NCBI GenBank assembly: GCA_009840385.1
Contig: VXNX01000001.1
Coordinates: 1 to 64,000, forward strand
Origin: Candidatus Dadabacteria bacterium
GTDB taxonomy: Bacteria; Desulfobacterota_D; UBA1144; Nemesobacterales; Nemesobacteraceae
Length of the DNA stretch: 64,000 bases
Direction of reading: 5' to 3'
A program made the position numbers and the translations under genes. Position 1 is the first letter of the stretch. Every line of letters begins with the position of its first letter. This document shows positions 15,112 to 29,520 of the stretch, piece by piece. A model generated the notes under the pieces. It made no database searches, was not told where the DNA came from, and was given only the letters and a program-made list of their open reading frames with translations.

Positions 15112-16287
15112 GTGATGGATTCAACAGCTTTTCTGTCTCGATTGTGGAGGGATGAGCATTCCCGATCCGTTATTATTCAGGTCCTCGCAGTCGTGCTGAT
15201 CTTCGGCTTGTTCGCCTACCTAGTAAGAAATGCCATTGTCAACCTTGAGGCAATAGGCAAAGGGTTTAGTTTCGGCTATCTGCAGGAACCCGCAAGCTAT
15301 GATATAAATCAGCATCTAATAGAATACACGTCCCGTTCCACTCACTTCCGCGCAATGCTGGTGGGAATTCTAAATACCCTTCTGGTGGCGGTAAGCGGCG
15401 TCGTTCTGGCAACGGTTCTTGGATTCACGCTGGGCGTTCTGCGGCTGTCGAAAAACCTGCTGGCAAGCAAGCTTGCCCACATCTATATTGATTATGTAAG
15501 GAATGTACCCGTACTGCTCCACATACTCCTTGTATACGGGATCATAGTTAATACGCTTCCCGTGCCCAGAGAGGCGCAAAGTCTCGGCGATATCGCATTT
15601 CTGACTAATCGCGGCTTTTTTCTTCCCAAACCGATTTTTGAACCTCTGTTTCTGGTGATTCTGGGTCTGTTCGCCGCGGGAATTGTTTTCACAATATGGT
15701 TCCGCAGATATGCGGCGGATATACAGAGAAAAACGGGAGAGCACTACCCGGTGTTCTGGATATCGTTGGGGGCCGTGCTGGGAATTCCGTTTATCTCCTA
15801 TTTTCTGATAGGTGGTCCGATCACGTTTGAGATACCCGCGCTGACAGGATTTAACTTTAGCGGAGGTATGGTGGTCAGGCCTGAATTCACCGCACTTTGG
15901 ATTGCACTTTCCCTGTATACAGCCGCGTTTATCGCCGAGATAGTAAGAGCCGGCATCATCTCCGTCAATTACGGGCAGACCGAAGCGTCCCTAGCCCTTG
16001 GGATAAACCACGGCAGAACGCTTAATCTGGTCGTGATTCCCCAGGCGCTGAGGGTGATAGTACCACCGCTTACCTCGCAATATCTTAACCTTGCCAAGAA
16101 TTCATCTCTGGCCATCGCGATCGGCTACATGGACATAGTCGCCACCATCGGCGGCATTACGCTTAACCAGACGGGCAGGGAAATGGAATGCATGATTATC
16201 GTGCTGTTGCTGTATCTCTCATTATCCCTGTTAATATCCTTCGCGATGAATATCTACAACAAACGAATCAGCCTGGTTGAACGTTAG
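15112..16287 (+). CDS. aapQ: Amino-acid ABC transporter permease AapQ
   Basis: The first of two membrane permeases of the Aap/Bzt system, 391 residues. It has an N-terminal helix, a long periplasmic insertion, and the HisM-like permease core. The EAA loop near the C-terminus reads YGQTEASLALGINHGRTLNLV followed by IPQALRVIVPP. The start is GTG 15112 immediately followed by ATG 15115, with no strong Shine-Dalgarno. It ends with TAG at 16285-16287. The next permease frame begins in the same reading frame directly after that stop, which is where the unusual aapM start lies. Confidence 0.93.
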   Translation: MMDSTAFLSRLWRDEHSRSVIIQVLAVVLIFGLFAYLVRNAIVNLEAIGKGFSFGYLQEPASYDINQHLIEYTSRSTHFRAMLVGILNTLLVAVSGVVLATVLGFTLGVLRLSKNLLASKLAHIYIDYVRNVPVLLHILLVYGIIVNTLPVPREAQSLGDIAFLTNRGFFLPKPIFEPLFLVILGLFAAGIVFTIWFRRYAADIQRKTGEHYPVFWISLGAVLGIPFISYFLIGGPITFEIPALTGFNFSGGMVVRPEFTALWIALSLYTAAFIAEIVRAGIISVNYGQTEASLALGINHGRTLNLVVIPQALRVIVPPLTSQYLNLAKNSSLAIAIGYMDIVATIGGITLNQTGREMECMIIVLLLYLSLSLLISFAMNIYNKRISLVER

Positions 16288-16299
16288 GAGGAAATAGTT

Positions 16300-17409
16300 A
16301 TAAACCAAAGAAACTACAGAGTTGGAGAACACCCTGATCTTCCGCCGCCTCGTAACGTAATAGGAATCTACGCCTGGACAAGAAAAAATTTTTTCTCGAG
16401 TGCCACAAACATAGTCTTAACGCTTCTGGCGTTCTGGTTCCTGATTGAAACCGTTCCCGCGCTTGTGGACTGGCTGTTTCTTGACGCGGCATTTACCGGG
16501 GGAAGCAGAGATGAATGCAGGGCCAAGGCTGGCGGTGCGTGCTGGGCGGTTATCGGCGAACGTCTTAACCTGTTTACCTATGGTTTTTACCCAGTCGCTG
16601 AGCGCTGGCGGGTGAATCTTTCACTTGTCCTGCTGATTTTCACTCTTTTTCCGATACTCTTTGAAAAAGCGCCTTATCGCAAATACGCTCTTCATATCGC
16701 GGTCGCCTTCCCATTCGTCACCGCATGGCTTCTGGTCGGAGGACTAGGTCTTACGCCTGTCGAAACCGACCAGTTCGGCGGTTTCATGCTTACCTTGGTC
16801 ATCGGAATAACCGGCATCGGGTTTTCATTACCGATTGGGATTCTGCTGGCTCTGGGTCGTCAGTCGAAGCTCCCCGCCATCCAGATATTTTCAATAGGCT
16901 TCATTGAGTTTATCCGCGGAGTACCGTTGATTACTCTTCTGTTCGTAGCTTCAACGATGCTTAATTATTTCCTCCCTCCAGGAGTGACTTTCGATCTTCT
17001 GCTGCGCGTACTGATCATGGTTACCCTTTTCGCGTCGGCATACATGGCGGAAGTTATCCGTGGAGGTCTGCAGGCAATACCGAAAGGACAGTTCGAAGCC
17101 GCGGATTCAATGGGGCTTCACTACTGGTCCGCCATGAGGCTGATCGTATTGCCCCAGGCGATGAAGATTTCCATACCCGGCATAGTGAATACTTTTATCG
17201 GACTATACAAGGATACGACACTGGTAATTATTATCGGACTTCTAGATCCTCTTGGGATAGGCAGAGCGTCTCTCGCAGATACAAGGTGGACGGGGCTCTC
17301 CACCGAGGTTTATCTGTTCGTGGCAATATTCTTTTTTATCTCTTGTTTTGGGATGGCAAGATATTCACAGTACCTTGAAAGTAAACTGGAAACCGATCAT
17401 AAAAGATAA
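16300..17409 (+). CDS. aapM: Amino-acid ABC transporter permease AapM, apparent ATA start
   Basis: The second permease, 369 residues from the proposed start. The conserved AapM N-terminus is present: the LPPPR segment, the first helix ([20 protein letters not shown]) and [11 protein letters not shown]. It begins upstream of the first conventional start codon, GTG 16465, which would delete that helix. Between the upstream stop TAG 16285 and GTG 16465 the frame has no ATG, GTG or TTG. A strong AGGAGG at 16286-16291 lies eight bases before ATA 16300, the likely start. The EAA loop reads [19 protein letters not shown]. Alternatives are a sequence error at the start codon or readthrough of the in-frame TAG to give an AapQ-AapM fusion. 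aapP follows after 5 bases. Confidence 0.88.
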
Positions 17410-28438: not shown

Positions 28439-29428
28439 CTAGTTTAGAATTTCTTTCCTGACCGGCATCTGCAGGTCGTCAAGCATCCTGAGATCATCGC
28501 GCGGCGAGCGTCCGGGAGTGGTAAGGTAGTTGCCGAGGATCATGGCGTTTGCCCCAGCCACAAGACCCATTGCCTGGAGATCGCGAAGCGTCACTTCCCT
28601 TCCCCCTGCAGTCATTATTATCTTGTCCGGAAGCACGAGCCTGTAAATCGAGATTGTTCTTACGGCTTCAAGCGGCTGTATGGTCTCGAGGTTCTCAAAC
28701 GGGGTCCCGGGTCTCGGGTCAAGGAAGTTTATCGGAACCCAGGTGGGGTTAAGATCCCTTATCTCGAAAGCGAACTCCATTCTCTGACGTATGCTCTCTC
28801 CCATGCCTAGTATGCCGCCCGAGCAGAGATTCATGCCGGTTTCCTTTACCAGAAGAGCGGTCTTGAGCCTGTCATCGTAGCTGTGGGTAGTGCATATGCT
28901 GGGGAAATGGCTTCTGCAGGTCTCTATATTGTGGTTGTATCTCCACACCCCGTGGTCCCTTAGTTCATAGGCCTGTTCTCTTGTCAGATCCCCCAGAGAG
29001 CAACCGACCTTTAGGTTCGTTTCCGCGCAGAGAAGGTCAACGGCCTCGAGAACCTTTTTGAATATCCTGGGCGTCGGGCCCTTGGCGCTTATCACTATGC
29101 AGAAATCCATGGCGCCCATTTTCTCCGCCTGCCTCGCAGCTCCGAGTATTCTCTCCGCCGCCATAAGCGGGTGAGCCTCAATCTCGGTATCGAAATGGGC
29201 CGACTGGGAACAGAAAGAGCAGTCCTCGGGACAGTTTCCCGTCTGGGCGCTTATTATCGAGCGCAGAAACACCCCGTCGCCCTTATATTTGAGAGTCACC
29301 TTTCTCGCAAGCGATATAAGTTCCGAGAGGCGCTCGGCGGGAAGTTCCGAGAGCGCCAGGGCGTCTTCAAAAGTTATGTCTTCCTCTTTTTCGAGAAGTT
29401 TTTCGGAAACGACGTCAAGAATGTCTAT
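28439..29428 (-). CDS. bioB: Biotin synthase, apparent ATA start
   Basis: A radical-SAM enzyme inserting sulfur into dethiobiotin. The CX3CX2C motif is CPEDCSFC within QTGNCPEDCSFCSQSAH; other family blocks are YNHNIETC, NLCSGGILGMGE, VPINFLDPRPGTP and TAGGREVTLRDLQ. The first conventional start is GTG 29299, which would remove about 43 residues conserved in the family (the DITFEDALAL ... LARK helices). The frame upstream, back to TAG, has no ATG, GTG or TTG. AGAGG at 29436-29440 lies seven bases before ATA 29428, giving a 329-residue protein of normal BioB length. A base-call error at the start codon is the main alternative. Confidence 0.9.
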   Translation of the reverse strand: MDILDVVSEKLLEKEEDITFEDALALSELPAERLSELISLARKVTLKYKGDGVFLRSIISAQTGNCPEDCSFCSQSAHFDTEIEAHPLMAAERILGAARQAEKMGAMDFCIVISAKGPTPRIFKKVLEAVDLLCAETNLKVGCSLGDLTREQAYELRDHGVWRYNHNIETCRSHFPSICTTHSYDDRLKTALLVKETGMNLCSGGILGMGESIRQRMEFAFEIRDLNPTWVPINFLDPRPGTPFENLETIQPLEAVRTISIYRLVLPDKIIMTAGGREVTLRDLQAMGLVAGANAMILGNYLTTPGRSPRDDLRMLDDLQMPVRKEILN

Positions 29429-29520
29429 TTGGTTGCCTCTGAGTATTAAGTCTAGGGGAATCTAGGTTACAGAAACGGGCGGGGTTGTCAAACGAAGCCG
29501 GTTTGCGGTCCGAGCACTTC

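Follow-up and report, generated by a model that had tools for sequence, protein, structure and literature searches.

It is well established by comparison that the biotin synthase gene (bioB) in the window, the whole stretch of 64,000 nucleotides of Candidatus Dadabacteria DNA analysed here, starts at an AUH codon (H = A, C or U) and not at one of the canonical start codons ATG, GTG and TTG. We consider it likely that bioB is translated from this codon, positioned by a Shine-Dalgarno (SD) sequence, and that weak initiation restrained by IF3 holds the BioB output low. Within this explanation the start itself comes from the comparison of genes, and the parts played by IF3 and by regulation are what we infer.

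The frame of bioB, read on the minus strand, runs TAG (29464-29462) ATT CCC CTA GAC TTA ATA CTC AGA GGC AAC CAA ATA (29428-29426) GAC ATT CTT and onwards to the TAG stop at 28441-28439. No ATG, GTG or TTG was found in this frame between the upstream in-frame stop and GTG 29299, in agreement with the initial annotation, which had proposed ATA 29428 as the start of the gene. That annotation had also placed AGAGG correctly, in both position and spacing, seven bases before the ATA, and had given the right length, 329 residues, for a full-length biotin synthase. The translation scored 372 bits against TIGR00433, for which the equivalog cut-off is 225, matched the radical SAM (PF04055) and BATS (PF06968) domains, both above cut-off, and contains the CxxxCxxC motif in the form CPEDCSFC. 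The gene is placed first in a bioB-bioA-bioF order. The coordinates of bioB and of the other features are collected in Table 1.

Table 1. Location of bioB, of its start and leader features, and of the other genes with AUH starts; positions without a genome and contig label are those of the window.
Feature	Position	Strand	Remarks
bioB, biotin synthase	28439..29428	minus	329 codons and stop, read from ATA 29428
ATA start codon of bioB	29426..29428	minus	AUH in 35/35 orthologues of the order
AGAGG Shine-Dalgarno sequence of bioB	29436..29440	minus	7 nt before the ATA
In-frame TAG stop upstream of the bioB start	29462..29464	minus	11 codons before the ATA
GTG, first canonical in-frame codon of bioB (codon 44)	29297..29299	minus	not the start
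Promoter-like element TTGACA-N16-TAACCT	29464..29491	minus	from leader sequences; putative function
ATA start of aapM	16300..16302	plus	after AGGAGG 16286-16291; second AUH gene of the window
infC	G000:C3, about 76922	plus	L073-L102; genus sequence GGAGGTAACGGT ATA GCT
rsfS (ribosome silencing factor)	G000:C1:80457-80825	minus	L173-L240
purC	G000:C3:73884-74765	minus	L311-L322; AUU start, tentative

The search for relatives covered 44 genomes of the order, and the 5' end of the orthologue was present in 35 bioB genes, which include two tandem copies from one genome; the AUH start is kept across 33 genomes. The genomes compared are probably all metagenome-assembled, and one of them is a single-contig chromosome. 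The first codon was ATA in 12, ATT in 18 and ATC in five of the 35 genes and canonical in none, which bears out a start at ATA 29428. The comparison with sister genomes that had been suggested, with ATG as the contrary outcome, gave ATA in 11 of the 12 genus members that have the gene, ATC in one and ATG in none, and the 23 genes from other genera of the order had ATT, ATC or ATA and no ATG. ATA as the conserved state stood only in part: AUH is conserved at codon 1, but ATA itself is not, as the third base varies. Over the stretch present, the window protein aligned without gaps with the 34 orthologues, codon 1 included. In 33 of the 35 genes at least 4 nt match the SD consensus, and the aligned spacing is 4-9 nt in 34 of the 35. 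Several leaders of the order leave almost no space for an alternative start, as in the bioB of L026, which reads TAG AGG AGG GTT AAA ATT. Other AUH codons close to the start (ATT 29461, ATA 29446 and the ATT at codon 3) were tried and rejected, AUH not being kept there in the orthologues. An upstream canonical start was rejected as well, since 32 of the 35 genes have no canonical codon from the in-frame stop to the AUH codon and the remaining three have only TTG.

The bioB genes of ten marine small-genome relatives from the same class (L031-L040) have ATG at or near the same place. Nine second bioB genes, paralogues with 49-57% identity that occur in genomes of the order (L041-L046, L049, L242, L243), also start with ATG, as do outgroup BioB genes of Actinomycetota and Fibrobacter (L067, L070, L071), and a survey in the phylum of G060 found no true BioB. 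The ATG of the marine relatives and of the paralogues indicates that the AUH start originated close to the base of the order and then persisted, and one change from AUG to AUH, retained since, would be the simplest history. A tandem pair of orthologous bioB genes was observed at L047 (G015:C74), whose proteins share 69 and 73% identity with the window protein and whose starts are ATT and ATC.

AUH starts in other genes were sought in about 400 kb of sampled sequence. In the first sample, 208 kb of this genome were compared with a syntenic genus member over 153 conserved genes, and a gene was taken up when conserved coding sequence surrounded its first canonical codon and a good candidate for an AUH start was present; this gave bioB, aapM, infC and rsfS, and possibly purC as well. 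For a second sample of 200 kb with 154 predicted genes the screen used only codon usage and SD, because the 200 kb chosen from G006 was not syntenic with it, and this screen, which would miss weak-SD cases such as purC, gave no convincing AUH case. Altogether about five of roughly 336 surveyed genes were affected, so that the AUH start is gene-specific and not a change of the code; the search for further ATA starts that the initial annotation had proposed thus yielded a few more genes and not a genome-wide feature. The start of infC is AUA across the Dadabacteria examined, the marine relative included. For rsfS, AUA was found in nearly all genomes of the order with the N-terminus present, AUC in two and AUU in one, often immediately 3' of a stop codon; elsewhere the gene starts with ATG in the marine relative and with ATG, TTG or GTG in another phylum. 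The start of aapM is ATA in all nine genus homologues with the N-terminus present, and the stretch from this ATA to the first canonical codon shows 0, 2 and 6 substitutions at codon positions 1, 2 and 3 in comparison to G006. In purC, all 12 genus members are without a canonical start in the expected place, and the start may be an ATT with a weak SD that is conserved in 12 of 12 and lies four codons ahead of the homology; in other families of the order purC mostly has ATG or GTG near the same place.

A base or assembly error that hides a true ATG codon in bioB has next to no probability. The ATA was read from a single genome assembly, but more than 30 genomes, each assembled separately and the single-contig chromosome among them, have ATA, ATT or ATC at this codon, and with AUH at codon 1 in all of the 34 orthologues such an error is ruled out. 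Hardly more credible is a start at GTG 29299 or at another internal codon, the first 43 codons then being untranslated or a leader. GTG 29299 is, in this genome, the first canonical codon that the frame offers. However, GTG occupies this site in only 11 of the 35 orthologues, the others having the valine codons GTT, GTC or GTA, and no SD is found at it. The match to TIGR00433 begins at profile position 2, which lies 17 residues after the ATA, so that a start at the GTG would drop about 27 family positions; the initial annotation had counted about 43 family-conserved residues ahead of the GTG, and the profile does begin upstream of it. Two biotin synthases of the PDB (8vdw and 8vcw) align with BioB from residues 16 and 19, and the E. 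coli enzyme (1r30) from residue 34; the first two alignments begin ahead of codon 44. Codons 2-43 also evolve as coding sequence, with 0.043, 0.022 and 0.357 differences per site at positions 1, 2 and 3 between the genus and the window gene, whereas the 33 nt before the ATA, compared ungapped in the genus, show the non-coding pattern of 0.64, 0.74 and 0.64, and the two patterns together place the boundary at the AUH codon.

With the start placed there, a special initiator tRNA or altered decoding could make AUH an ordinary start in this lineage, which would fit the occurrence of several AUH genes (infC, rsfS, bioB, aapM and probably purC). This is only slightly less remote, as AUH is confined to so few of the surveyed genes and the tRNA set is ordinary, with a standard CAU initiator: among 44 tRNA genes found, three are CAU (one standard initiator, one Ile2-like and one further), in an assembly (G000) that is 97.75% complete and whose tRNA set could miss a gene. 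The main rival is a real AUH start that is non-regulatory, i.e. a weak start that fixes a low level and senses nothing; it would have been fixed once, a low level of BioB would suffice and the third base would drift among A, C and U. Little BioB is needed, and drift of the third base between A, T and C is indeed seen; we regard this reading as somewhat unlikely. What speaks against it is the lack of any change to G, although nearly every fourfold site of the gene shows this base. On a protein tree made without the start codon, by a quick method that left several forks open, the third base underwent at least seven changes between A, T and C, none of them to G, and only two of 66 fourfold-degenerate columns with a conserved amino acid in the 33 full-length bioB genes are without G. 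In the genus-only version of this test 64 of 142 columns are without G, which makes it weak, and the force of the argument therefore comes from the whole order. A change to G would be a single step raising expression, and that it was never seen suggests that AUG is selected against; selection for a low BioB level alone would also exclude AUG.

The leader of bioB contains a conserved promoter-like element. In essentially all 35 leaders of the order TTGACA(A) is followed by a sequence of the form GTAATCTAA or CAGTTAAA, with 14-17 nt between TTGACAA and the GTAATCTAA- or CAGTTAAA-like sequence (leaders L001-L048, L226 and L227). From its sequence this element may be a promoter overlapped by an operator, and its presence in the leaders indicates that bioB probably has its own short leader, uncoupled from the upstream gene. 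A scan with the promoter consensus did not list the element at 29464-29491, because TAACCT matches too few bases of the -10 box. The BirA protein of this genome (L225, G000:C13:348628-349344) begins directly at the ligase domain, without the N-terminal DNA-binding domain. As it consists of the ligase part only, the classical biotin repressor is missing in this genome, and a weak start may be one remaining way to limit the biotin pathway without it.

In the explanation by restrained initiation, the ordinary CAU initiator tRNA would read the AUH codon of bioB with a third-position mismatch, and IF3 would reject this near-cognate pairing, making initiation on bioB inefficient. BioB synthesis would be capped low and would fall further when IF3 is abundant, by the same logic as for infC, the gene of IF3, which is present here and itself AUA-started in these genomes. 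For infC it was shown previously that IF3 rejects near-cognate pairing and that its AUU start underlies autoregulation (PMC9410913 and references therein). In S. aureus, reporters with conserved AUU or AUA starts gave about 10% of the AUG level (PMC13009471). Our argument for why bioB in particular is restrained is that a low cap would suit an enzyme that is needed in small amounts and whose turnover consumes iron-sulfur clusters and SAM, and that limiting BioB would suit a genome whose BirA is without the DNA-binding repressor domain. Excess BioB would be costly, since the enzyme uses two SAM per biotin and releases toxic 5'-deoxyadenosine, and its [2Fe-2S] cluster must be rebuilt (PMC11089781). 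The SD in the window genome is only AGAGG, which was counted against this explanation. It is possible, though rather doubtful, that infC, rsfS and bioB across the order, with aapM and purC in the genus, form a small set of IF3-governed AUH genes, through which the state of the initiation machinery would bear on ribosome silencing as well as on biotin synthesis.

Selection is already known to have preserved near-cognate starts in infC, pcnB, ccpN and cvfC1, and bioB adds to these cases. Like infC, with AUU or AUA as start and here AUA in the same genomes, bioB has a conserved near-cognate AUH start with an SD; unlike infC, it encodes a metabolic enzyme, so that control by IF3 would give no feedback on its own product. 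In E. coli the inefficient AUU start of pcnB limits this chromosomal gene, as summarised in PMC9410913 from Binns and Masters 2002. Similarly, bioB is a chromosomal gene with an AUH start, for which the effect is predicted, but it is unrelated to pcnB, and its AUH is kept over a whole order with a varying third base. The conserved starts of ccpN (AUA) and cvfC1 (AUU) in S. aureus and relatives were found by profiling (PMC13009471) and show extended SD motifs, whereas the SD of bioB is moderate, from GAGG to AGGAGG, and its start was identified by sequence comparison. Ordinary BirA-repressed bioB operons share the bioB-bioA-bioF order behind a conserved promoter-like element and differ from the operon described here in the start codon and in the BirA, which here has the ligase part only. 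Unusual for bioB is that a metabolic gene has an order-wide AUH start with a varying third base and, in several of the same genomes, a paralogue with AUG. Our literature search, which left most subscription papers outside, found no earlier description of an AUH start for either bioB or rsfS.

For gene annotation in this lineage, callers restricted to ATG, GTG and TTG would cut 43 residues from BioB and would truncate or misplace the starts of rsfS and infC. Known cases of a long-kept AUA, AUU or AUC start in bacteria number only a handful of genes, most of which act in translation or gene regulation. The order-wide AUH start of bioB beside a paralogue with AUG provides a natural test of whether weak starts are selected as control devices.
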